A DNA stretch of 64,000 nucleotides from an uncultured Colwellia sp. (lineage in GTDB: Bacteria > Pseudomonadota > Gammaproteobacteria > Enterobacterales > Alteromonadaceae): contig CAJXUN010000007.1 in NCBI GenBank assembly GCA_913061475.1, positions 62,001 through 126,000 on the forward strand, given 5' to 3'. Shown here piece after piece: positions 19,394 through 31,182 of this stretch. How positions within the stretch are numbered: the stretch's first letter is position 1; the number at the start of each line of letters is the position of its first letter. The notes under the pieces are model-generated. The model made no database searches, had not been told where the DNA came from, and saw only the letters and a list, made by a program, of their open reading frames with translations. The position numbers and the translations under genes were made by a program.

Positions 19394-20161
19394 ATGCGTA
19401 TTTCAAAAAACAATTTAGCGATTATTATTGGTGGCTCAAGTGGCATGGGTTTAGCAACGGCCCAACAACTAGCTGCAAAGGGCACTGACCTTATTATCGT
19501 CGGTCGCGACATTGATAAGCTCAAAGCCGTTAAAGCTGAGCTTTCGTTACTAACCCAGGTAGAAACTTTTTCGGTAGATTTATACAGCCAATCGCAAGTC
19601 GATGAATTAAATCAGTATATTATAAGCCTTGAACGACACATTAATTACTTAGTTAACGCTGCTGGTTACTTTAAACCAACCAAATTTTTGCAGCATAACC
19701 ATGCTGTTTATGACCAATACATGGAGCTAAATCGAGCGACATTTTTTATCTCGCAAGCCGTAGCTAAAAATATGATCGAACACCGCGCTGGCGCCATCGT
19801 CAACATTGGCTCTATGTGGGCTAAACAAGCCATAAAAGCCACACCATCTTCGGCATATTCAATGGCAAAAGCCGGCTTACACTCACTCACCCAACATATG
19901 GCAATGGAACTCGCCGAATATAACATCCGGGTTAATGCGGTTGCGCCAGCAGTTGTAAAAACACCGATATATCAGTCATTTATTGAACCAGAAGATATTG
20001 ATAGTGCACTTGCGGGTTTCGATGCCTTTCACCCGATTGGCCGAATTGGCCATGCTGATGATATTGCTAATACAGTGAACTTTTTATTAAGTGAACAAGC
20101 CGATTGGGTCACGGGGGCAATTTGGGATCATGACGGCGGTGTAATGGCAGGCAGAAATTAA
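19394..20161 (+). CDS. Short-chain dehydrogenase/reductase (SDR)
   Basis: 255 residues, classical SDR. The cofactor motif is GGSSGMGLATA (TGxxxGxG type), NAAG appears as VNAAGYF, the catalytic Ser lies in NIGSMWA, YxxxK is present as YSMAK, and AVAPAVVKTP and DHDGG follow near the C-terminus. ATG 19394 has GGAG 6 nt upstream; the in-frame TTG at 19382 is rejected. The substrate is unknown. The divergent HxlR gene probably controls it. Confidence 0.93.
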   Translation: MRISKNNLAIIIGGSSGMGLATAQQLAAKGTDLIIVGRDIDKLKAVKAELSLLTQVETFSVDLYSQSQVDELNQYIISLERHINYLVNAAGYFKPTKFLQHNHAVYDQYMELNRATFFISQAVAKNMIEHRAGAIVNIGSMWAKQAIKATPSSAYSMAKAGLHSLTQHMAMELAEYNIRVNAVAPAVVKTPIYQSFIEPEDIDSALAGFDAFHPIGRIGHADDIANTVNFLLSEQADWVTGAIWDHDGGVMAGRN

Positions 20162-20233
20162 GTAGCTTGCATCAGCCATTAATACATTACACTTACGCTA
20201 TTTTGCTGGTATATCATGCCAGCAAAGCTAATG

Positions 20234-20644
20234 CTATTTCAAGCGACTAGGCTCAAAGGTTGAATAACGAGGTAACTCCGCATCCATATCTTCCCAATTC
20301 GCTTTTGAGTCAACAAAATTATGTGACAGTGGTCGCGCTGATATATCACTATCAAATATCCCTAGGCGTATTCTAATTCTGGCCTTATCTTCATCATTAC
20401 TACTGAACACAGGGCTGCCGCAATATTGACAAAAATAGCGTGTTCTACCCGGTTTAAACGAAAAACTGGTTAATGACTTTTCGCCTTGTTTTATTTCAAA
20501 ATCAGTACTATTCACAAAACCATTGGTGGCGTAAGCCGTACCTGAGTTTTTTCTACATAGCGAACAATGACAATGGATAATATCGCTAATTTCACCCTTA
20601 ACGGCAATCACGACTTCACCGCACAAACACTTTCCTGAATACAT
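20234..20644 (-). CDS. GFA-family (CENP-V/GFA) zinc protein
   Basis: About 136 residues from ATG 20644 (MYSGKCLCGEVV). It has the cysteine pattern CLCGEV, CHCSLCRK, YFCQYCGSPVF of the glutathione-dependent formaldehyde-activating enzyme family. Most family members have no proven reaction. An in-frame GTG at 20680 would add 12 residues and overlap the preceding GNAT gene; I prefer the ATG. The gene is convergent with the SDR gene. Confidence 0.9.
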   Translation of the reverse strand: MYSGKCLCGEVVIAVKGEISDIIHCHCSLCRKNSGTAYATNGFVNSTDFEIKQGEKSLTSFSFKPGRTRYFCQYCGSPVFSSNDEDKARIRIRLGIFDSDISARPLSHNFVDSKANWEDMDAELPRYSTFEPSRLK

Positions 20645-20666
20645 TTTTACACCGTTTTCTATAGCG

Positions 20667-21095
20667 CTACGACGAGCCACTAGATAATTGTTTTACCATA
20701 TAATATTTGCAACCAGTTTTAGGATAACCCTGCTGCGTCCATTGCACTTGATAACCATGTTTTTCATAGAATGGCATGGCTTGAAAATTCAACGTATCCA
20801 GTAACGCTTTGTTGCAACCTCTAGCCTGTGCGGCTAATTCCATTTTTGTTAATAATTTGCTGCCAACATCTTGTCCGCGCAAACTTTCAGCTACCCATAA
20901 GGTGTTAATCATCAACCAATCACCAAATGTTCGCCCAGCAGCACCTGCGATAATGTCACCGTTTTCATCGCTTAATTTTACCGCTAATGCTTTGCGTTCA
21001 CTCACTTCCCAGTGAGCCCAATTAAACTCAGCAATTTTTTCATCTAAAAATGACACCAACTGCGCATCGGGGTTTTCTAGCACTTCAATATTCAC
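20667..21095 (-). CDS. GNAT-family N-acetyltransferase
   Basis: 142 residues starting at GTG 21095 with AGGA 6 nt upstream. Motif A is LWVAESLRGQDVGSKLLTKME; before it comes GDIIAGAAGRTFGDWL, and after it ALLDTLNFQAMPFYEKHGY. The pattern matches small GNATs of unknown substrate. It lies just upstream of the GFA gene on the same strand and is probably cotranscribed with it. Confidence 0.9.
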   Translation of the reverse strand: MNIEVLENPDAQLVSFLDEKIAEFNWAHWEVSERKALAVKLSDENGDIIAGAAGRTFGDWLMINTLWVAESLRGQDVGSKLLTKMELAAQARGCNKALLDTLNFQAMPFYEKHGYQVQWTQQGYPKTGCKYYMVKQLSSGSS

Positions 21096-21334
21096 GATAA
21101 ATCCTATAACTTTTTTAGCTTACTACGCTGAGTATAGCGAGTTGCGAATCGCTTAATTTAGCTGAAAACAACGCTAAGTGATACCAGAAAATAACCTGTA
21201 ACCTGAGTTTTAATTGGCTAATTAAAAGAGACAAAACAACATTCTGCTAACGACATAATCACAGCATAAACCGAGTAATTAGCGCATCGGCCTGAAGGTA
21301 TAATGATATATTTTCAGTTATCTACTGCGGGCTT

Positions 21335-22201
21335 CTAGCCCTTTTCTGACTTTTCTATCAAACGCTTATAAACGCCTTCTATATTTAGAGGTAGCCACTC
21401 ATCATATTGCTTAAAATCATTATAAGTATCTAATTTAATACTTTGCTTTAACTCATCTAGGCTTTTTCCAAAATGAATACCATCGACAACAGCCCCGTAA
21501 AGATCTTCAATATAATTCAGGTACCGCTTAACATCGGCTTTATTACCGATATCAGCATGACCGCCAACAAAAACATCAAAATCAAGTTCAAGCAACTGCT
21601 GGGTAGACTTGATAATACCTTGAATATCATAACGCCAGAGTTTCCGCCAAGGCATTCGCCCTACCACGACCCAGTCAACAACAAACAATAACTTTTCCGG
21701 TTTAAACAGCATACTGATAGAGCCACGACCGTCATTGGCGCCATGATATCGAAGCTCAACGGTGTGACGACCAAGAGTTATGGTCATATTATCTTTAAAT
21801 GTGGTATCAGGGAGCACGGTATTCAACTTCATAAGCTGAATATCCTGTTTTGCTAATTCATGTGCGATAAATGTTGTTTCAGGGCTTTTAAACACCTCTG
21901 CGCCATAGATGTGATCACTATGGTTGTGGCTATAAACAACATACTTGATAGGCACGTCGAAACGTTTTTTGAGTGCTTTTTTTAGCCATTTTGCCGCACT
22001 CTCGTTTAGCGGATCGGTTAGCAATATCCCCTGTTCAGTCACCAAGAATACCGAACGATGTCTCCCATCTAAAAACCGGTAAACATCTCCTTTTACATGT
22101 TCAATGTTATAGTCATTAGCCAACGTAGCTAAACTAGATAAAGCAAAAATCACCATAAGTAGCATGGAAGCTAACGACTTATATCTCGAAACTATCTTCA
22201 T
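21335..22201 (-). CDS. Secreted metallo-beta-lactamase-fold hydrolase
   Basis: 288 residues. The signal peptide is about residues 1-29 (ASMLLMVIFALSSLATLAN). The metal motif HNHSDH (VVYSHNHSDHIYG) and a later GGHADIGN fit the MBL fold; VDWVVVGRMPWRKLW lies between. This is the type often annotated as MBL-fold hydrolase linked to quinoprotein or alkyl-sulfatase-like enzymes; the substrate is unknown. It sits at the distal edge of the cassette-like region, but no attC-like site follows it, so I treat it as ordinary chromosome. Confidence 0.85.
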   Translation of the reverse strand: MKIVSRYKSLASMLLMVIFALSSLATLANDYNIEHVKGDVYRFLDGRHRSVFLVTEQGILLTDPLNESAAKWLKKALKKRFDVPIKYVVYSHNHSDHIYGAEVFKSPETTFIAHELAKQDIQLMKLNTVLPDTTFKDNMTITLGRHTVELRYHGANDGRGSISMLFKPEKLLFVVDWVVVGRMPWRKLWRYDIQGIIKSTQQLLELDFDVFVGGHADIGNKADVKRYLNYIEDLYGAVVDGIHFGKSLDELKQSIKLDTYNDFKQYDEWLPLNIEGVYKRLIEKSEKG

Positions 22202-22238
22202 AAATCCGTCCGGTTTTAATCGCTATTTACTAAAAAGC

Positions 22239-22339
22239 ACCAATGCCCTAATCATAGGCGAAAATTGTCTGCTAAAATCAGCGAGGCATAGACAATAGCC
22301 AACTTATGTGGACTCCCTCTTGAACAGCTTGCTATGAAC
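22239..22339 (-). repeat. attC-like site D
   Basis: Read on the minus strand, it opens ATAGCAAGCTGTTCAAGAGG and closes GCCTATGATTAGGGCATTGG. AGTTGGCTATTGTC in the left half pairs imperfectly with GACAAT in the right. The TAG stop of the preceding gene is part of the site. Confidence 0.55.
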
Positions 22340-22685
22340 AATTATCGCAATGAATAAAAAATAAAATAATTAACTCTGCCGCACTTATAGCTGCTAATTG
22401 AATAATAATGGCAAGCATTAAACCAATACCCGCCTGTGCATCTGGTTCTACTCCAAATAGTAACCCTGGAACTACAAGAAAAACAATAATGGCGGGTATA
22501 ATTCGAATGACGGCTAATTTAACTGTGCTGTAGTTTTTATTGCTCGAAAAGTAATATAGAACTACATATGGAGATAATAAAAGCGCTAAACCAGTGGCCC
22601 CTGCATGCCAATATTCAATAGCGATAGCAAAAAATGAAAAAACAGCTAAAAGCTTGATCGCATCATTAATCTTGAGATGACTCAT
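22332..22685 (-). CDS. Small multi-spanning membrane protein (unrecognised), cassette gene
   Basis: 117 residues from ATG 22685, which has AAAGGA 6 nt upstream; a longer frame upstream runs through attC-like site C and is rejected. Three to four hydrophobic segments are visible (LLAVFSFFAIAIEYW, GLALLLSPYVVLYYF, IIPAIIVFLVVPGLLFG, GLMLAIIIQLAAISAAELIILFF), with a short polar end (HCDNCS). No family is recognised. It is flanked on both sides by attC-like sites, so it forms a complete one-gene cassette. Confidence 0.65.
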   Translation of the reverse strand: MSHLKINDAIKLLAVFSFFAIAIEYWHAGATGLALLLSPYVVLYYFSSNKNYSTVKLAVIRIIPAIIVFLVVPGLLFGVEPDAQAGIGLMLAIIIQLAAISAAELIILFFIHCDNCS

Positions 22686-22700
22686 TGGTATTCCTTTACA

Positions 22701-22790
22701 CATAATGTCCGAGTATGAGGCAAAAAATTGTTGGCTAGAATGTTGAGGGAAAAACACAAAACGGTAATTCTTCCATGCTTAACTGCTTTT
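22701..22790 (-). repeat. attC-like site C
   Basis: The minus-strand right end is TAGCCAACAAT, then GCCTCATACTCGGACATTAT. The left end AAAGCAGTTAAGCATGGAAG is poorly conserved. It shares TAGCCAACAATNTTTT with site B exactly. Confidence 0.5.
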
Positions 22791-22939
22791 TATTCTGCAA
22801 CTTCTATTGCTATATTATTATAAATTCCAGAGCTTTTAAATCTTGACCAAACATCCTGATACAAAGCTGATTGTGGATTAAAATAATCCTCAACTAATAA
22901 CGCTAATTCAGCTGTGAGACTAGTGAAAGAAATGCTCAA
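22790..22939 (-). CDS. Possible 49-residue protein or gene fragment (unrecognised)
   Basis: An open frame from TTG 22939 to TAA 22790-22792. Protein-like content includes LTAELALLVEDYFNPQS and YQDVWSRFKSSGIYNN. The Shine-Dalgarno spacing is poor. It ends exactly where attC-like site C begins, as expected for a cassette gene. It may be the 3' remnant of a longer gene. Confidence 0.3.
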   Translation of the reverse strand: MSISFTSLTAELALLVEDYFNPQSALYQDVWSRFKSSGIYNNIAIEVAE

Positions 22940-22988
22940 TTAACAGTGGCTATCCTATTGATTGCTTGAAATGATTAGCGATGATTTT

Positions 22989-23414
22989 TTACAATTTTTC
23001 CCAGTATCTTTGCATCTCAAAATATAAAAATGATGCAGTCCACGTAATAAGAACAAGGCCCGTTAACGATTCAATACCCGTTAAGTGCTTGAGGTGCCCT
23101 GTGGGCTCAATATCACCAAAACCTACAGTCGTGAATACGGTAAAAGAAAAATAAGCGCAATCCATTAAGCTACCATCGAAATTGCCAGTAAGCTCCCCCC
23201 AACCATCTGATATATTCATAAAATAATAGCCTAATGCAAAAACCCAGATCTCTATTACATGCGCGATAAGGGCGCCGAAAACTCCAAATACAACTTTATA
23301 TCGGTGCTTAATTTGCATTTTTGGCAAATACATCACTATACGAGATAAAAATTCATAATGTAGAATGACCACAATGGCCACCATTAAACTGTTAATTAAG
23401 AAGACATAGACCAT
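22989..23414 (-). CDS. Two-TM potassium channel-like protein, cassette gene
   Basis: 141 residues. N-terminal hydrophobic helix, a second segment (VFGALIAHVIEIWVFALGYYF), then a pore loop FTVFTTVGFGDIEPTG containing the K+-channel selectivity filter TVGFGD, followed by a last membrane helix (SLTGLVLITWTASFLYF). This is the Ion_trans_2 architecture without a regulatory domain. The minus-strand start ATG 23414 has AGG 9 nt upstream. It is part of the cassette-like run, though no attC-like site is recognised directly after it. Confidence 0.85.
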   Translation of the reverse strand: MVYVFLINSLMVAIVVILHYEFLSRIVMYLPKMQIKHRYKVVFGVFGALIAHVIEIWVFALGYYFMNISDGWGELTGNFDGSLMDCAYFSFTVFTTVGFGDIEPTGHLKHLTGIESLTGLVLITWTASFLYFEMQRYWEKL

Positions 23415-23521
23415 TTTGGTTAACCTATTCTCGCTATTTACCTATATTTTCAACAACAATCTCGAAAGATCAACAGACCCTAGTGTAAACACCACCTCAT
23501 TCCCTAACAAGCTTCGATGGC

Positions 23522-23887
23522 CTATTTCTGTTGATGCTGCTGGCTTAACCACCACTTCTCCATAATTCGGACATTTTTCTGATTCGATTTATAAAATAAA
23601 TCAGCTAAGTCACCAACAAAAGGAATAATCCCTAATAGAAAATCTATCGCAATATTTTTTACCATACTGACTCTAAGTGCTCGTGGTACCTGCATACTTT
23701 TAGCCATACCAACAATGGTAAAGGATGTACCTACCATGATCAGGTCGCCTACAACGGGAATGAGTCCAACCAAAAAATCTAAACCTAAGCGAATACCTAA
23801 CAGTGGAATGCGTATTTTGGAATCAGTTAGATTCGCCAATTTCTGTGCTTTTAAAAGCGCCTTAGGTGCTTGAGCCATATCGTTCAT
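23522..23887 (-). CDS. DUF4112 domain-containing protein
   Basis: 121 residues. Duplicated amphipathic-hydrophobic pattern: IRIPLLGIRLGLDFLVGLIPVVGDL and NIAIDFLLGIIPFVGDLADLFYKSN, each with a G-hydrophobic-P-x-x-GD motif typical of DUF4112. It is probably membrane associated, with unknown function. GGAG lies 7 nt before the ATG. Confidence 0.9.
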   Translation of the reverse strand: MNDMAQAPKALLKAQKLANLTDSKIRIPLLGIRLGLDFLVGLIPVVGDLIMVGTSFTIVGMAKSMQVPRALRVSMVKNIAIDFLLGIIPFVGDLADLFYKSNQKNVRIMEKWWLSQQHQQK

Positions 23888-24037
23888 TTTTCTACTCCAT
23901 TGTTTATACCCAAACTACTTTAAGATGCAGTTTCAGAGATCGTGCTAAAGGTCATAAATTTTACCTATAATGGTGAGCAACGGAATAGTCATCGCTTAAA
24001 ATATTATTGCTACCAAAGTATTTCTCCAATACTTTGC

Positions 24038-24209
24038 TTAAGTAACCACTAAAAAGTGTCTTGCACTGCCTGTTCGTAAACCTTGTTCAGCTCCTAATAA
24101 ATCAGCAATATTGACTGATGGTAATTCATCAGCACTTAATAAACCTACTCATTGAAAACGAAATAAAATGCTGAACATCGTCACTCGTTAATACACCGGA
24201 GAAGTACTT
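24038..24209 (-). pseudogene. Frameshifted remnant of an unrecognised gene
   Basis: Two protein-like pieces lie end to end in different frames. The first (from 24209) reads KYFSGVLTSDDVQHFISFSM. The second (24148-24038) contains GLLSADELPSVNIADLLGAE and ends in TAA. A one-base shift near 24148 would join them. No start codon or family is recognised. The 366-bp space between DoxX and DUF4112 holds nothing else. Confidence 0.35.
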
Positions 24210-24253
24210 CTATAAATAGTTACTTTTGTTGCAATTCAACGTTGATACTAAAA

Positions 24254-24619
24254 CTATTTATTGCGACGAAGTGTTACTAATAATTGTGTAACCTCTGCTC
24301 GACCAGACCAAGCACGCCAAAATGCAGCTAGCGCTATAGCAGAAGCAACAGCTAGCATTAACCACTCTTTGTGAACGAGGTGCGTTCCAATAGCACCGAG
24401 CATAAGAAACGCTAGGCATAGAGAAGCGAATGAAGATAGTCGAGGAATAAGTAATCCTATGGCGCCAACAAATTCGACTACACCAGTGAAATACATAAAT
24501 TCAATTGGGTATCCCCAACGTGCAAAGGCTTCAATTTCGAATGGCAACGACAATAATTTAGCACCGCCCGAAGCGAAGAAAATTAACGCGATAATATAGT
24601 TTAAAATACGAGTGCTCAT
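24254..24619 (-). CDS. DoxX-like membrane protein, cassette gene
   Basis: 121 residues with four hydrophobic helices. The N-terminal LNYIIALIFFASGGAKLL and the later YFTGVVEFVGAIGLLIPRL are characteristic of the DoxX_2 group. The function is unknown; relatives are linked to redox or membrane integrity. AGGG lies 6 nt before ATG 24619. attC-like site B precedes it. Confidence 0.88.
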   Translation of the reverse strand: MSTRILNYIIALIFFASGGAKLLSLPFEIEAFARWGYPIEFMYFTGVVEFVGAIGLLIPRLSSFASLCLAFLMLGAIGTHLVHKEWLMLAVASAIALAAFWRAWSGRAEVTQLLVTLRRNK

Positions 24620-24703
24620 TTATAACCCTAATAAGAGGCTAAAGTTACAGGCGCTGTGAATATAAATTTTATCCATCATTTTCCATTCTGGAGAAATTAT
24701 ACA

Positions 24704-24798
24704 GCCTCAACGCCACGTTAAGCGGAAAAGATTGTTGGCTAAAATTGTGAACGGAGTGAAACAGCCAACTGTTTTTTTTCCGTTTGAACGCCTTGTAC
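24704..24798 (-). repeat. attC-like site B (best conserved)
   Basis: On the minus strand it opens AGTACAAGGCGTTCAAACGG and closes CCGCTTAACGTGGCGTTGAG. ACAGTTGGCTG in the left half pairs with TAGCCAACAAT in the right; the outer CGGAAAA and TTTTCCG also pair. The extra unpaired bases on one arm fit attC structure. It begins 2 bp after the VOC gene. Confidence 0.65.
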
Positions 24799-24799
24799 T

Positions 24800-25213
24800 T
24801 TATCGTTGAACCAAACTGAACCAGTTACCAGAGTTGTCTAAGCCCATAGCTTCGACGCCATATAGCTGCTCTGTAGGAGGCTGGATAAACTTCACATCTT
24901 TAGCTACAAGCTCTTCGTACGTTTTTTGGCAATTTCCAGTCTCGAAAACACCGGCTCCAAATGCGCCTTCTTCGATTAAACTTCGTATTTTTTCGGCAGC
25001 GTCTTTGGTGAACATCGGTCCTTCTTTTGGCTCTGCCAACACTAGTTGAGTTTGTGGTTTAGATTTTGGGTATACCGTTAGCCACCGAAAATCTCCTTCA
25101 ATTTTCATATCATCACCGACTTCAAAACCCAGCTTGTTTTTATAAAAATCGAGCGCTTCTTCCTGATTAAGTACGTATATTGTTGTATGTGCTATGGATG
25201 TTATCATCGACAT
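24800..25213 (-). CDS. VOC-family (glyoxalase/bleomycin resistance fold) protein, cassette gene
   Basis: 137 residues. A paired beta-alpha-beta-beta-beta fold is suggested by IAHTTIYVLNQEEALDFYKNK at the start and by ENGN-like GLDNSGNWFSLVQ at the end. A potential metal site is His9 plus the Glu/Gln positions of the second half. The substrate is unknown. It follows the AraC-type regulator by 65 bp with no attC-like site between, so the two may share one cassette. Confidence 0.9.
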   Translation of the reverse strand: MSMITSIAHTTIYVLNQEEALDFYKNKLGFEVGDDMKIEGDFRWLTVYPKSKPQTQLVLAEPKEGPMFTKDAAEKIRSLIEEGAFGAGVFETGNCQKTYEELVAKDVKFIQPPTEQLYGVEAMGLDNSGNWFSLVQR

Positions 25214-25278
25214 ATTTCCTGTTGTTAATTAATCTTTATCATATAGAAATAATCAAAACGGTGTTTCTCCAATATTGC

Positions 25279-25698
25279 TCAATTAGCCAATTTCCCTAAA
25301 AAATTATATGCATAACATGCCGGTATAACTTGCGATGGAAAACGGTACGCTTCACCAGACAAAGCCCAAAGCTTACGACGATATACAGTAGGTGCAACAC
25401 CAACTTGCCTTAAAAACAATGAAGAAAAGCTACCAAGACTTGTGTAACCGACTTGCTCGCAAATTTCTGAGACACTAAAATCCCCCGTAATAAGCATTTT
25501 TTTAGCTTGTTCGACTCTAAGCCGAATCAAAAATTCGTTAGGTGTTTCTCCATAAGTATCCTTAAAAACACGTAAAAAGTGATAAGGAGACATGTAAGAG
25601 CACTTTGCTATACCTGATAAGCTGAGAGGTGCTTGATAATTATTAGCAATATAATCCCTACCAATATTTAATCTTTCAAATTTATAGCTCGTAGCCAT
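25279..25698 (-). CDS. AraC-family regulator, DNA-binding domain only, cassette gene
   Basis: 139 residues from ATG 25698, which has AAGGAAG 7 nt upstream; an upstream in-frame GTG (25719) is less likely. Two helix-turn-helix motifs are visible: LSLSGIAKCSYMSPYHFLRVFK and FSVSEICEQVGYTSLGSFSSLF. There is no sensor domain. About 35 residues follow the DNA-binding region. It probably regulates the VOC gene behind it. Such stand-alone AraC domains are frequent beside VOC genes. Confidence 0.9.
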   Translation of the reverse strand: MATSYKFERLNIGRDYIANNYQAPLSLSGIAKCSYMSPYHFLRVFKDTYGETPNEFLIRLRVEQAKKMLITGDFSVSEICEQVGYTSLGSFSSLFLRQVGVAPTVYRRKLWALSGEAYRFPSQVIPACYAYNFLGKLAN

Positions 25699-25727
25699 AA
25701 GATATCTTCCTTGAGCCACTTAAAATA

Positions 25728-25824
25728 TAATGCTTTGCTAAGCGGCTAAAAATTGTTGGCCAAAATTTGCGAAAAACGAGCGCAGCAAACTGTGATTTGT
25801 CCGACTTGAAAGCCCTTGTTATGC
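25728..25824 (-). repeat. attC-like site A
   Basis: On the minus strand it opens GCATAACAAGGGCTTTCAAG (the TAA is the DinB stop) and closes GCCGCTTAGCAAAGCATTAT. CAGTTTGCTG on the left faces GGCCAACAAT on the right. Confidence 0.6.
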
Positions 25825-26328
25825 ATTTTCATCAATTTCTCTCAAATACACTGGATAATCATTCGCAGGTGGTATTGCCGGGACTTGATACATTAAATCA
25901 CCAACAAAACCTCTGTGGTAGGTTGAGTGGTTTACAACATGAATAATCATGTCTGCACGTGACATAGCTCCCTCACCACCGCCTACGAATTGAAACTTGA
26001 CTACTTCAGATAGTCTTTCATCTGATACTTTATTGGCATAATCGACATACCACTTATCCATGACCCTTTGTAGCCTCCATAGATCTTCAAGTGGTGGATG
26101 GCTATCCGTGTTACGCTCAGTATAGTTATGGGTATTTCCGAGAATATGTGCTTTAAAAATATCGTCAATCACGTAAACATGATTAAGAGTGTGAACCATA
26201 TTGCCAAAGCGAGTTTGTCGCTTTTTCGTGGCCTCTCCCTCTGGAAGCTCGTGAACTCCTGAAAAGGTTAATTCATTTGCCCATGCTTTGTATTTTGTGA
26301 GGGTCTGAATCGTTTCAGATAGCTTCAT
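25819..26328 (-). CDS. DinB-family protein, first cassette gene
   Basis: 169 residues, a four-helix bundle of the DinB/YfiT type. Histidines in MVHTLNHVYVIDD and HVVNHSTYHRGFVGDLM fit the three-His metal site of the family. Most members are thiol-dependent transferases or of unknown function; the name reflects a Bacillus damage-inducible gene. Its TAA stop is inside attC-like site A and a GTTATGC half site lies 28 bp upstream of its ATG, as in an integron cassette. Confidence 0.92.
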   Translation of the reverse strand: MKLSETIQTLTKYKAWANELTFSGVHELPEGEATKKRQTRFGNMVHTLNHVYVIDDIFKAHILGNTHNYTERNTDSHPPLEDLWRLQRVMDKWYVDYANKVSDERLSEVVKFQFVGGGEGAMSRADMIIHVVNHSTYHRGFVGDLMYQVPAIPPANDYPVYLREIDENA

Positions 26329-26355
26329 AGTACTCTCGAGTTTGAATCATTATAT

Positions 26356-26362
26356 GCATAAC
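26356..26362 (-). repeat. attC/attI-like half site before the DinB cassette
   Basis: GTTATGC on the minus strand, preceded by GATTAAGTT, resembles the recombining end of an attC or attI site. Together with the GCATAAC at the end of the DinB gene it would bound one cassette. Upstream sequence does not form a clear palindrome. Confidence 0.35.
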
Positions 26363-26549
26363 AACTTAATCAGAGGACACTTTCCTTTTTCCTACCAAAA
26401 AGTTTCCACCTTATTTAATTTACCTATTAATAACAAATCCCTATAGCCTTTACCAGCGCTTATTTTTCTGGTTTTATGTTAAGACGATGAGATGGAAAAT
26501 GGGGAAAGTTGTCTCATTACATGACTTGGCAGAAATGTGTACTTTCAGA

Positions 26550-26576
26550 AATAAAAAACCCGGATAAATCCGGGCT
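26550..26576 (-). terminator. Rho-independent terminator of the amidohydrolase gene
   Basis: Stem CCCGGAT/ATCCGGG (26559-26565 with 26568-26574), followed on the minus strand by TTTTTTATT. It marks the border between the chromosomal gene and the cassette-like region. Confidence 0.9.
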
Positions 26577-26601
26577 TTTGCAAATAAAGCTTTAATAAAG
26601 T

Positions 26602-29600
26602 CTATTTTTCAAAATAGAATTTTTCACGCTTGTTATCATAGTTGCCCACTTCATTCATGGTGTCGGCGTTATATAAACGGCCATTCACCATGGTATAAAC
26701 CACTCTGTCAGATAAGCGAATATTTTCACTCACATCACCGTCAATAACTAATATATCAGCCAACTTTCCGACTTTCAGTGAACCTAACTGGCTGTCTAAA
26801 CCTAAGGTATGTGCCGAAGACATTGTTGCGGTGCGAATAGCTTCCAATGGCGACATGCCACCTTGTGCCATCATCCACATTTCCCAATGCATCGCTAAAC
26901 CTTCACGTTGCCCGTGACCACCAGCGTTAACCACAACACCTAAATCTTGTAGCTCTTTCGCGACTTTAGCGACATTAATGTGGTTGTAATGATGATGCGG
27001 CGCTTTCGTACGACGCATTGAGCGTGGATCTAAAAACTCACTAGGTACATATTTGCTCAACCGCGGATGTTGCCATACATCGGTCGTTTCATACCAAAAG
27101 TGCTCACCTGAAATACCACCGTAGGCTACGCCCATCGTCGGCGTGTAAGCCATTTCAGATTGTGACCATAGTTGTTTGATGTCGTCATAAATTTTAGCAG
27201 TCGATATTGAATGCTCTAATGTTGTATGACCATCAATAATCATCGATAAGTTATGTTGCAGCAGTGAGCCACCTTCTGGCACCACTAATATTTCGGCTTC
27301 ACGTGCGGCTTGTACCATTTGTTGGCGTTGATTGCGGCGCGGTTGGTTATAGCTTTTAACACTAAACACCCCGGCTTTTTTCAAGCGTTCAATATGAAAT
27401 TTAGCATCGTCTAAGCTATCAACGTGTGAGGTATAACCTGCCGCTGTCGCGCCGTACAAAATACTACCGGTTGAGAATAAACGCGGCGCGACAATATCAC
27501 CGGCTTTTTGCAATTCGCTAGCAGCAAAAAATTCGGTAGTGTCGTTTGATGGATCGTGAATAGTAGTAACACCTAGCGCTAAGCCAGCGTAGTTTTTCCA
27601 GTTTTGCTGTGGAATAATTTCATTGCTACCTTGCGGGCCATGAGCATGGGCATCAATTAGGCCGGGCATAATAGACTTACCCGTAATATCAATCACTTTA
27701 GCGTCTGACGGAATATCTACCTGCCCTTGTTGGCCAACGGCAATAATTTTATTGCCTTCAACCACCACTACACCATTTTCAATGATTTGCTCAGCTTCCA
27801 TGGTGATAACTTTACCACCAACAAAGGCAACACGGCCTGACGGTTTATCGGCTTTTTCTTGATAGCCTAAGTAAGTTTTTAGAGGCTCTTTTTCTGAGCT
27901 TTCTGACGCTTGTTCATCTGTTTTGCTCGCCGTTTTTTCAGTGCTTATATCGAATAAACCTGCGACACTGGCTTGGTATAAATCAGGTCCTAAACTCCAG
28001 TACAGTTCATTCGATTGACCATTCCAGTTAATACTCTCACCAGCACGAACCGATAGTTTTTTCACCGGTAAGTTTTTCGCTGACGGACCAATATCAATCA
28101 CCTGACCACGTTCAACAAACGGCGTTACAAATACTTTAAAACGTTCGGCAAACGCTAAATATTTACCGTCAGGTGACACTTTATATTCGGTTGCAAACTT
28201 ACCTTGATAAAGCGCTTGTTCTTTCTCTGCTGATGAATTGTCTAAACTAATTTTCATCAATTGTGGCGTTTCGCCATTACGTAAAACGTAAATACGATCG
28301 TTTTTAGCACCAAAGTGCGGGAACTCGCCCGATTCAGTCACTAATTTTGGTGTGCCATTTTTAACGTTAACGGTATAAATACCAGGATTTAAACCCCAGG
28401 TTGGGTCGGTAATATAACCACCTGATGCTTTACGAAATACCACGCTTTTACCGTCAGGTGAAAAGCTGGGTTCAATATACTTTCCAGGCTCATTGGTTAA
28501 GACACGGCTCTTGCCACCACGGACAGATACCATGCGAATTTCACCCAGTTTGTTATCATCCCAAGTGCTATAAACCACGTACTTTCCGTCGCGAGAAAAG
28601 CTAGGGTTCAATTCAAAATGTGCTTTTTGCTTAGTCAAGCGTTTGGCTTTACCTTTAGCCTTACCGTCAGCAATGGTGCGAAGGTAAATATGGCCCATTG
28701 ATTCATAAACAACTTTTCGCCCGTCGGGTGATATTTCAACATCACGCAGCATTTTTACGTCAAAATTATCTTGGTCAATATCTTGTTGGAAGCGCAAAGC
28801 GGTTTGAATTTTTTTCTCGGTTTTCACATGAAAAGGAATAACCGTTGCTGTTTTGCTTTCAAGATCAAGTTTATTAATTTGACCACCTGACCAAAACACC
28901 ATACCTTCGCTGTTTGGCAACCAAGCCATGTTCGGGTAAACACCGTGAATAGCCCATGTTTCTTGCATATCGCGATCTAAGTTTTCAAAAACCAAGGTGT
29001 CTTTACCGCTTTTTAAGTCGTGTAAATATAAATTAGATTGGAAGTCGTCACGGCTAATATAAGCCAAGTACTGACCATCAGGTGACGGTACAGGGCGTAT
29101 TGCCCCACCTTTACCAGAAACCACGACTTTAATTTCGCCAGTTTCAAGCGCTAGGCGTTTTATTTTATAAATGCCTTTTTCCGAATCTTTGCTGTAATGA
29201 AAGGTTTTACCTGGCGTTGCATCTTGTGAGAAGTAAACATATTTACCGTCGTGGGAAAATGCCGGTTCGCCTAAATCTTTTTGCTCGTTAGGTCGTTTGG
29301 TTAGCATTACGCCATTACCACCGGTTTTGTGGTACATCCATACTTCGCCAGCACCCAGAGAGCGAGAACCGGTAAAGTGTTTACGACCAACAAGGTAATT
29401 ACCATCTGGTGACCAAGCAGGGCTGTTTAATAAACGAAAGGTTTCAGCACTCACTGCTTTACCTGCGCTACCATCGGCATTCATAATCCAGAGGTTATCA
29501 CCACCATCTTCATCTGAGGTAAATGCTATGTGCTTACCATCTGGGCTGAAACGTGGTTGCATTTGCCAAGCAATATCGGTCATTAACGCGGTTGCTTCGC

Positions 29601-29874
29601 CACCTTCAACGGGTAGCGTATAAATATCGCCTAATAAATCAAATACTAAAGTTTTACCGTCCGGACTAATGTCGACATTCATCCAAGTACCTTGGCGAAC
29701 ATCAATTTTTGCCGTGGTAAATTCGCCTTGAGGGCTATTTACCGACCACTTTTCAGCTTTAGCTTTGTCTGTTACTTTAGTGGCGCTATCTTCAGCAAAG
29801 GCTTGCTGACTGGTGCCCAACACTAAGGCAATGCTGAGTGCTAGCGAGGATATTCTGGAAGTAAATTTCGACAT
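26602..29874 (-). CDS. Secreted TolB/WD40-like propeller fused to an amidohydrolase domain
   Basis: 1,090 residues. Signal peptide over residues 1-28 (ALSIALVLGTSQQAFAE). Residues about 50-640 hold many PD40/TolB-type repeats with the SPDGK(Y/H) signature (for example DISPDGKTLVF, RFSPDGKHIAF, SWSPDG-like units). Residues about 690-1,070 form an amidohydrolase with the metal motif DAHAHGPQG (about residue 740), later LEHS and NAGGHGQREG. Known relatives are annotated as imidazolonepropionase-like or prolidase-like enzymes; the substrate is unknown. The propeller may bind peptide or polymer substrates (inference). It has its own terminator and stands alone. Confidence 0.92.
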   Translation of the reverse strand: MSKFTSRISSLALSIALVLGTSQQAFAEDSATKVTDKAKAEKWSVNSPQGEFTTAKIDVRQGTWMNVDISPDGKTLVFDLLGDIYTLPVEGGEATALMTDIAWQMQPRFSPDGKHIAFTSDEDGGDNLWIMNADGSAGKAVSAETFRLLNSPAWSPDGNYLVGRKHFTGSRSLGAGEVWMYHKTGGNGVMLTKRPNEQKDLGEPAFSHDGKYVYFSQDATPGKTFHYSKDSEKGIYKIKRLALETGEIKVVVSGKGGAIRPVPSPDGQYLAYISRDDFQSNLYLHDLKSGKDTLVFENLDRDMQETWAIHGVYPNMAWLPNSEGMVFWSGGQINKLDLESKTATVIPFHVKTEKKIQTALRFQQDIDQDNFDVKMLRDVEISPDGRKVVYESMGHIYLRTIADGKAKGKAKRLTKQKAHFELNPSFSRDGKYVVYSTWDDNKLGEIRMVSVRGGKSRVLTNEPGKYIEPSFSPDGKSVVFRKASGGYITDPTWGLNPGIYTVNVKNGTPKLVTESGEFPHFGAKNDRIYVLRNGETPQLMKISLDNSSAEKEQALYQGKFATEYKVSPDGKYLAFAERFKVFVTPFVERGQVIDIGPSAKNLPVKKLSVRAGESINWNGQSNELYWSLGPDLYQASVAGLFDISTEKTASKTDEQASESSEKEPLKTYLGYQEKADKPSGRVAFVGGKVITMEAEQIIENGVVVVEGNKIIAVGQQGQVDIPSDAKVIDITGKSIMPGLIDAHAHGPQGSNEIIPQQNWKNYAGLALGVTTIHDPSNDTTEFFAASELQKAGDIVAPRLFSTGSILYGATAAGYTSHVDSLDDAKFHIERLKKAGVFSVKSYNQPRRNQRQQMVQAAREAEILVVPEGGSLLQHNLSMIIDGHTTLEHSISTAKIYDDIKQLWSQSEMAYTPTMGVAYGGISGEHFWYETTDVWQHPRLSKYVPSEFLDPRSMRRTKAPHHHYNHINVAKVAKELQDLGVVVNAGGHGQREGLAMHWEMWMMAQGGMSPLEAIRTATMSSAHTLGLDSQLGSLKVGKLADILVIDGDVSENIRLSDRVVYTMVNGRLYNADTMNEVGNYDNKREKFYFEK

Positions 29875-30101
29875 TCTATTTAACCTAAATAGTTATTTTT
29901 ATTACCCCCTACTACAACACATCAGCATAGAAAATTTAAGCCTAATGCGATAAATGGGTAATATTTGCCGTTCAGCAGCCAATTGTTAGCTGCTGGTAAA
30001 TATAAATACCAATAATTGCAGAAGATGAGAAAAATTAGACAATTTTTTATTTTTCAGTATGGTAGATAGATATAACGATAATAAAAAAAGGATGACTATT
30101 T

Positions 30102-30395
30102 GTGGAAAGATTAAAAGAAGCACAAGCAAGTTTGATTGCCACTTACTCACTCTATAACGCCGCAAGTGAAAAAAAATTGCCGGCGATTGATGTTGATGAT
30201 AACGATACCCTGAAGGCGTTATTAGAGGTTATTCAAAACCGCGAAGCTATTGCTTACGTGCAAAAAGTTAAAAAAACTATTCCGACTGAAGTCACTGAAC
30301 TTAAGCGCTTACTTGCTGATGTAATGCTGTTGCTTGACGGTGTTGATATTAAGGCCATCAAAGCCAAAAATAAACTAGCGACTAATATTGATTAA
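30102..30395 (+). CDS. Hypothetical helical protein (97 residues)
   Basis: Starts at GTG 30102, with AAGGA 9 nt upstream. The sequence is soluble and mostly helical: LKEAQASLIATYSLYNAAS at the N-terminus, then TLKALLEVIQNREAIAYVQ and TELKRLLADVMLLLDGVDI. No family is recognised. It is divergent from the amidohydrolase gene. The 3' end contains one copy of a 15-bp direct repeat whose second copy lies in the following hairpin region. Confidence 0.65.
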   Translation: MERLKEAQASLIATYSLYNAASEKKLPAIDVDDNDTLKALLEVIQNREAIAYVQKVKKTIPTEVTELKRLLADVMLLLDGVDIKAIKAKNKLATNID

Positions 30396-30396
30396 A

Positions 30397-30451
30397 TTAG
30401 GGGCTGTTGATCTTGGTTTATATTATTAAACAAAAATAAACTAGCCCCTAA
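30397..30451. terminator. Hairpin downstream of the 97-residue gene (possible terminator)
   Basis: TTAGGGGCT (30397-30405) and AGCCCCTAA (30443-30451) form a perfect 9-bp stem enclosing a smaller GTTTAT/ATAAAC stem. There is no T-tract on the plus strand. The convergent ubiX gene ends 57 bp away. Confidence 0.45.
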
Positions 30452-30507
30452 CATGAAGCTCGATTAATAAACCTTAAAGTAATGCATTAATCGTGCTTCG
30501 CAACTAT

Positions 30508-31182
30508 TTAACTCATTTTATTTTTGTCACTAGGAAATGCTTGATAACCCCAGCGCGGCATAATGCTTTGGGCAATATTTAAATGGTCGAGCAAACGTCC
30601 TACCATAAAATCAATCAAATCGTTTATCGATTCTGGCTGATGATAAAAACCCGGTGCAGCTGGCATAATGGTGACGCCAATTTGTGACAGCGACAACATG
30701 TTTTGCAAGTGAATAGTTGAAAATGGTGTTTCACGTGGTACTAAAATCAATTGGCCACGCTCTTTTATCACCACATCAGCAGCACGTTCAATTAAATTGT
30801 CACTCATACCTTGGCTAATAGCCGCTAACGTACCGGTTGAGCATGGGCACACCACCATAGTTTTAGGTGCTGCCGAGCCAGATGCAACAGGCGAAAACCA
30901 TTGCTCTTTACCAAAAACGACAATTTGTTCAGGCTTAGCATTAAACTTTTCAGTAAAAAACTGGCTAGCGGCGTCTGGTGAACTGGGTAATTTCAAGCCC
31001 ACTTCAGTGTCAAATACTACCCGCGCAGCACTAGAGCATAATAGAAATACTTGATAATTAGCTGCCACCAAACACTCTAATAAGCGTAACGCGTAGGCTG
31101 AGCCGGAAGCGCCAGTAATCGCTAAAGTTATTTTCTGCTCAAACTCACGACTATTATTAATTGTTCCTGCTTGATTATTCAC
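30508..31182 (-). CDS. ubiX: Flavin prenyltransferase UbiX
   Basis: 224 residues. UbiX attaches a dimethylallyl group to FMN, making the prenyl-FMN cofactor used by UbiD decarboxylase in ubiquinone synthesis. Visible are [21 protein letters not shown] at the N-terminus, [30 protein letters not shown] and [14 protein letters not shown], the standard motifs. About 15 extra residues precede the fold. It lies 86 bp downstream of mpl on the same strand, a pairing common in gammaproteobacteria. UbiD is not in the window. Confidence 0.97.

Follow-up and report, generated by a model that had tools for sequence, protein, structure and literature searches.

The window analysed here, a 64,000-bp stretch of DNA from an uncultured Colwellia sp. 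(positions 62001-126000 of contig C7 in the 4.28-Mb, 88-contig source genome, G000), carries seven small genes that very probably form a decapitated, decaying integron, in which the attI site and the cassettes have been kept and the integrase gene, intI, has been lost. The array lies between an amidohydrolase gene (26602-29874) and an MBL-fold gene, entirely on the minus strand and more than 40 kb from either end of the 130,131-bp contig. It combines attC sites homologous to those of other genomes and sharing one orientation, an attI homology that ends at the crossover point, complementary ends of the first (DinB) cassette and an insertion specific to its lineage, and no intI stands at the locus. 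In the following, G codes other than G000 denote relatives, C a contig and L a fetched locus.

Results

An attI-derived sequence heads the array

A cassette begins with bases that complement the R'' box of the attC site it carries, a relation visible in the genomes studied here: 3.19 of the 4 variable bases match over 73 neighbouring pairs in the relative G001 (shuffled mean 2.07, maximum 2.40 in 2000) and 3.06 over 54 pairs in G000 (shuffled mean 1.86, maximum 2.20). In the window, the start of the DinB cassette, GTTATGC, exactly complements its R'' box, GCATAAC. Array heads were sought through the complementary 7-mer upstream of the first site of each array. The arrays share a pre-crossover context near YCATAATAAGCTG^TT, and the DNA upstream of the crossover forms repeat families of ~50-350 bp which, in all pairs but one, end at the crossover or at most 11 bp from it. 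Comparison with the loci of intI genes identifies these repeats as attI regions.

Such a region (26362-26463, minus strand, crossover base G at 26362) directly precedes the DinB cassette, which starts at 26361. In a sister species (G002, contig C17, locus L244), the attI adjoining an intI gene with one stop matches it at 81% identity over 102 bp (E about 1e-21), and the attI next to an intact intI in G115 (L144) does so at 75% over 95 bp; the heads of two further arrays of G000, on C12 and C24, match it at 81% and 84%. The matches to intI-adjacent DNA end at the crossover of the first cassette, and the sequence upstream of the DinB cassette is, as judged from this homology, an orphan attI. It lies just upstream of the span of the original prediction, that of an integron-like cassette array, which had missed it. 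Tested together, 17 of 18 array heads matched an intI-adjacent attI at E 1e-6 with both ends 0-5 bp from the crossover; the 17 include the window head as well as G001's own intI-adjacent attI, which matches itself, and the single head without a match (L255) retains a scrap of intI. As a control, 18 of 960 random 200-bp pieces from the same loci matched, all of them from loci that hold a head.

The attC sites of the window

The attC sites were called with a covariance model built in this analysis, as distinct from IntegronFinder's own. Its seed comprised 87 sites chosen by pattern and fold energy from arrays at the intI loci of relatives; removal of near-duplicates left 54, of which 45, from nine genomes and none from G000, were aligned. 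Note that the seed pattern required a GCGTT end, whose conservation in the model is therefore built in. RNAalifold predicted 32 pairs on the alignment, 21 of them with changes on both sides. Run unfiltered over both strands of the window, the model placed its top four matches on the four blocks of 95-100 nt, mutually related, from which the array had been predicted, and all four lie in one orientation, that of the genes, as had been proposed. Three of these matches are clear: after DinB (25725-25824, 51.6 bits, E 5e-11), after the VOC gene (24707-24801, 65.0 bits, E 1.3e-14) and before the small membrane protein gene (22700-22795, 26.3 bits, E 3e-4). The match after the latter gene (22238-22337, 18.0 bits, E 0.05) is marginal; since it barely exceeds the best matches outside the four blocks (17.5 and 17.1 bits), this site rests on place and orientation more than on score. 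All four are on the minus strand. With three sites at E 3e-4 or below and one at E 0.05, the array holds at least the two attC sites that define a cluster of attC sites lacking integrases (CALIN). Of the sequence that the blocks were said to share, TAGCCAACAAT, two sites have an exact copy and two an altered one, and the claim that two blocks include the upstream stop codon is borne out for the DinB and small membrane protein genes, whose stops overlap their downstream sites.

The sites are in different states of preservation. Only the one after VOC keeps both the GTT/AAC core of R' and an attC hairpin when folded as single-stranded DNA, at an unremarkable energy (z -1.22; equalled by 26 of 200 shuffles). 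In the other three the core base is lost, the top strand reading ATT; the site after DinB has a hairpin no better than those of shuffles and the two sites around the small membrane protein gene have none, so that the description of the blocks as imperfect palindromes holds for the VOC site alone. Because of the loss of the core base, these three sites are probably dead, that is, they would no longer recombine. The array is thus a decaying one. Across G000, 10 of 23 dispersed and tail sites depart from the core base, the highest count among 36 conserved columns tested (next, 8 of 23), against 0 of 43 sites on the contigs of the large array (sites at E 0.01 or below, the window's fourth site left out, the grouping of contigs being our own). 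This had suggested a lock-in through loss of the core base; in G001, however, 92 of 92 sites retain it, so that its loss can characterise old arrays at most.

The insert is specific to its lineage

The amidohydrolase protein has its nearest counterparts in G004 and G002 (95% identical), and the interval between this gene and the GNAT gene beyond the array is readable in 15 of the 16 genus relatives, the contig of G008 ending there. Neither any of the seven genes nor the MBL-fold gene is found in this interval in these 15 genomes (0/15), and the gene order is thus not conserved across the genus. The MBL-fold gene is absent from an 11-kb stretch at the locus in all 15 and occurs elsewhere in 6 of 59 other relatives searched; it belongs to the insert, and the view that both flanks are ordinary chromosome has to be given up on that side. 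Most relatives have instead a single open reading frame of 314-374 aa, presumably of the DUF523/DUF1722 type, and the remaining ones have different inserts or merely 140-338 bp. Where the window has its array, G004 carries a member of a REP-type transposase family (G004:C1:2214383-2215369); the flanking DNA common with this genome resumes at about 26515.

At E 0.05, no attC match was found inside the amidohydrolase-GNAT intervals of these 15 relatives. The sole matches in the stretches compared are those of G001, beyond the GNAT gene, where an attI-headed array occupies L113:3271-7346 (G001:C1:4416771-4420846). The surroundings of the GNAT gene have thus acquired arrays in two species, each at a point of its own. 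At the array on C12, an exact empty site was sought in three relatives and not obtained, since they differ over at least 1.6 kb there.

Integrase and other arrays in the source genome

The absence of a visible integrase, part of the original prediction, holds at the locus, where no intI adjoins the attI, and not for the genome: a single integron integrase gene above cut-off (453.8 bits) is present on contig C21, truncated at its 5' end by the contig end (G000:C21:69922). As the assembly breaks within the 5' end of this gene, its attI and first cassettes lie on another contig. The encoded protein is 93-95% identical to those of G004 and G009 and 57% identical to that of G002:C17; by sequence comparison, the surviving IntI belongs to another lineage than the intI whose attI matches the window. 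Integron integrases are widespread, being found in 113 of 147 genomes of the family, G000 included (E 1e-40), and in 15 of the 16 genus relatives (E 1e-20), 14 of which exceed the curated cut-off.

Counting weak matches and those on the opposite strand, the attC model gave at least 65 in G000 with E no higher than 1, among the 150 candidates scored out of 2171. Many lie on small contigs or contig ends that resemble pieces of a large array (the ends of C1, and C82, C84, C46 and C34). Internal arrays with at least two sites at E 0.01 were found on C5, C6, C7 (the window), C9, C12 and C24, that is, at least five besides that of the window; C36 has a single site and the 8.6-kb contig C75 has two. 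The heads on C12 and C24 belong to the same attI lineage as that of the window, and attI-like heads are also present on C9, C5, C36, C69 and C75. A second attI-like head on C5 (L208:2561-2693), ~4 kb from the attI-headed array of that contig and with no attC found beside it, is perhaps an empty orphan attI.

Numerous attI-headed arrays in a relative with one intI

More surprising than the window itself may be how many attI-headed arrays accompany a single integrase in a close relative. G001 is a single contig of 4,741,350 bp with a single intI. It has at least 17 attI-headed arrays, of which at least 16 lie away from intI; these places come from the matches listed (the best 150 of 281 over five closed genomes), which makes 17 a minimum. 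Together, the 17 places contain 92 attC sites, once 12 overlapping opposite-strand matches are subtracted from 104; the 16 away from intI account for 86 of these. The heads were recognised by the common attI test in 14 cases, by attI similarity for L261 and L263, and by an intI scrap together with similarity to L257 for L255, and fall, in our own grouping, into about six lineages. Two of the headless arrays retain intI scraps, of 24 and 38 aa, and so display the loss of the integrase gene at places other than the window.

A 431-bp run comprising one whole cassette is identical in two of these arrays, behind an orphan attI in L249 and behind an attC site in L262, and the crossover G alone is common to the sequences that precede it. 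Such an identity is what movement by IntI leaves; as neither array has an intI, an integrase acted in trans at these loci or the loss of intI is very recent. Among the matches listed, attC clusters more than 20 kb from any intI were also found in G004 (three, one of them with at least two sites), G006 (one, one), G009 (seven, two) and G010 (four, four).

Loci L247-L263 of G001 also contain a family of 324-339 aa proteins similar to REP-associated tyrosine transposases, with matches to PF01797 and NF047646 that stay under the respective cut-offs. At 10 of 14 loci a member is no more than 5 kb away from an attC array, frequently at its distal end; arrays plus 5 kb make up 5% of the genome (binomial P about 8e-11, for loci that are not independent). 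A requirement for such a transposase in the dispersal of arrays was discarded, since G000 has no match and G010 one fragment. Repeats of 98-99.8% identity occur inside the G001 arrays, of ~1.7 kb in L247, L249, L256, L261 and L263, of ~1.35 kb in L249, L255 and L258, and of ~1.6 kb in L257 and L260; they are probably insertion sequences, some touching attC sites.

Gene content of the insert

The genes are small, on one strand and unrelated in function, as had been predicted, six of the seven having Pfam domains that bear no relation to one another (DinB, HTH_18/HTH_AraC, Glyoxalase, DoxX_2, DUF4112 and Ion_trans_2). From the attI onwards, all on the minus strand, they are the DinB-family gene (25819-26328; PF05163, E 1.9e-21), an AraC-type regulator (25279-25719; PF12833, E 6.9e-22), a VOC (glyoxalase-fold) protein (24800-25213; PF00903, E 6.8e-15; phmmer match to 5umw_A, E 4.8e-31), a DoxX-like membrane protein (24254-24619; PF13564, E 5.9e-20), a DUF4112 protein (23522-23887; PF13430, E 4.3e-33), a two-helix K+ channel-type protein (22989-23414; PF07885, E 2.1e-12) and a small membrane protein (22332-22757) with neither a Pfam nor an NCBIfam match. 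On reading the sequence, the first codons of the last of these overlap the attC site, which makes translation more likely to begin at an internal ATG near 22685. The MBL-fold gene (21335-22201, minus strand; PF00753, E 8.6e-9) forms the distal end of the insert, and its own attC was not found. Its product matches many NCBIfam metallo-hydrolase models, none of those listed reaching its curated cut-off, and nothing marks it as a resistance gene.

The AraC-type regulator and the VOC gene probably make up a single cassette. Among the eight best plasmid records listed for VOC (38-44% identity), two also show an AraC or HTH gene within the match, so that the pair may have moved together as a two-gene cassette. 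Matches to DinB, at 28-33% identity, occur in 5 of 195 further genomes of the family, and one Burkholderia plasmid record reaches 61.5%; a search of plasmid records with the small membrane protein gave no match. The gaps 23888-24253 (366 bp) and 22758-22988 (231 bp) contain open stretches that, by reading, resemble remnants of cassette genes. Rfam at gathering threshold gave nothing in the window.

Discussion

We propose that an integron of the lineage that persists in the sister species would once have occupied the space from the amidohydrolase terminator to the GNAT gene, and that its IntI would have inserted cassettes at attI, DinB being the one that now adjoins it. The integrase gene, once placed between attI and the amidohydrolase, would later have been deleted, and the array would have remained in place while its attC sites eroded. 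We infer this order of events, as well as the surviving IntI doing little at the window array. Several observations weigh against this scenario. No remnant of intI was detected at 20001-31000 of the window, and no relative provides an exact, clean empty site for the interval. The attI homology covers just 102 bp, against up to 290 bp in other arrays. There are four attC sites for seven genes: the model found none between the AraC-type and VOC genes, nor among the DoxX, DUF4112 and K+ channel genes, so that DUF4112 has none on either side. Three of the four sites fold no better than shuffles (z +0.54, +0.87 and +0.65). None of the window cassette genes was found in the other arrays fetched, and no attI match was found for the array on C6, for which reason not every array is proven headless.

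The missing attC sites in several intergenic gaps and the poor folding of three blocks are what an ordinary gene cluster with chance or unrelated palindromes would display. Two of the blocks, however, reach E values below 1e-10 with a model drawn from other genomes, and together with an attI at the predicted crossover these matches refute that explanation, to which we give practically no credence. Insertion of the cassettes by a resident integrase at a secondary chromosomal site (of the attG type), where an integron had never been present, was what we initially expected. Passages of PMC12444791, PMC12901181 and PMC10127599 describe off-target insertion into genomes, and the junction carries the GTT that such sites need. 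The array heads spoke against it: the DNA before the crossover is ~100 bp of attI and not random chromosome, whereas an attG insertion is flanked by neither attI nor attC, and this origin, largely refuted by the attI, now appears very improbable. We consider just as improbable that a piece of the genome's large array was relocated by rearrangement and never had its own integrase here. The DinB attC has the GCTTTGCTAAGCGG stretch in common with sites on the large-array contigs, and several G001 arrays contain the repeated elements of 1.3-1.7 kb, probably insertion sequences. Yet a copy of attI would need to have moved along with the cassettes, the window attI is of a lineage other than that of the surviving intI, which shares 57% identity with the intI beside the matching attI, and the window sites are more eroded than those of the large array. 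The loss of intI from an integron that stood at this place therefore remains by far the better account of the window.

A broader reading, which we put forward tentatively and hold to be somewhat less probable than its negation, is that the genus has a distributed integron, a single integrase serving many attI docking sites of several lineages round the chromosome, with the window as an old, largely dead port. If so, one cassette pool would have many entry ports and expression contexts, and should orphan attI sites still be served in trans by one integrase, the notion of a single integron with a single platform fails in this genus.

CALIN, a term of Cury et al (2016) as a passage of PMC9024848 describes it, is the right class for the window array, as predicted, because no integrase lies near. 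The array resembles other members in its two or more attC sites in one orientation with no intI nearby, and differs in the orphan attI kept at its head and in the lack of core base and hairpin at most of its sites. It is a modest addition to this class. CALINs have been proposed to be degraded integrons, usually on the absence of intI; since attI survives here, the sequence itself reveals where the array came from, and headless arrays become assignable to integron lineages. Among the matches listed in a search of the open literature, no paper was found on integrons of this genus or on attI-headed CALINs.

With the sedentary chromosomal integrons of Vibrio, Xanthomonas and Shewanella, the array shares an attI head, one cassette orientation and one attC family, whereas it is short, decayed and without intI at its locus. 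Like the attG secondary-site cassettes in the passages of PMC12444791 and PMC12901181, its cassettes lie far from the intI of the genome; unlike them, they stand behind attI-derived sequence. For Shewanella, the part of PMC9229058 that bears on CALINs gives two to six attC sites in the genomes that have them, and 115 single sites over 41 genomes. A further parallel is with the Xanthomonas CALINs away from ilvD, for which the relevant passages of PMC12444791 give seven loci, mobilisable in trans: these too are integrase-free arrays at several fixed chromosomal loci, attributed there to ancestral integron activity. The scale differs, with seven loci across that genus and, in the one closed chromosome of G001, at least 16 attI-headed arrays away from intI, of about six attI lineages.

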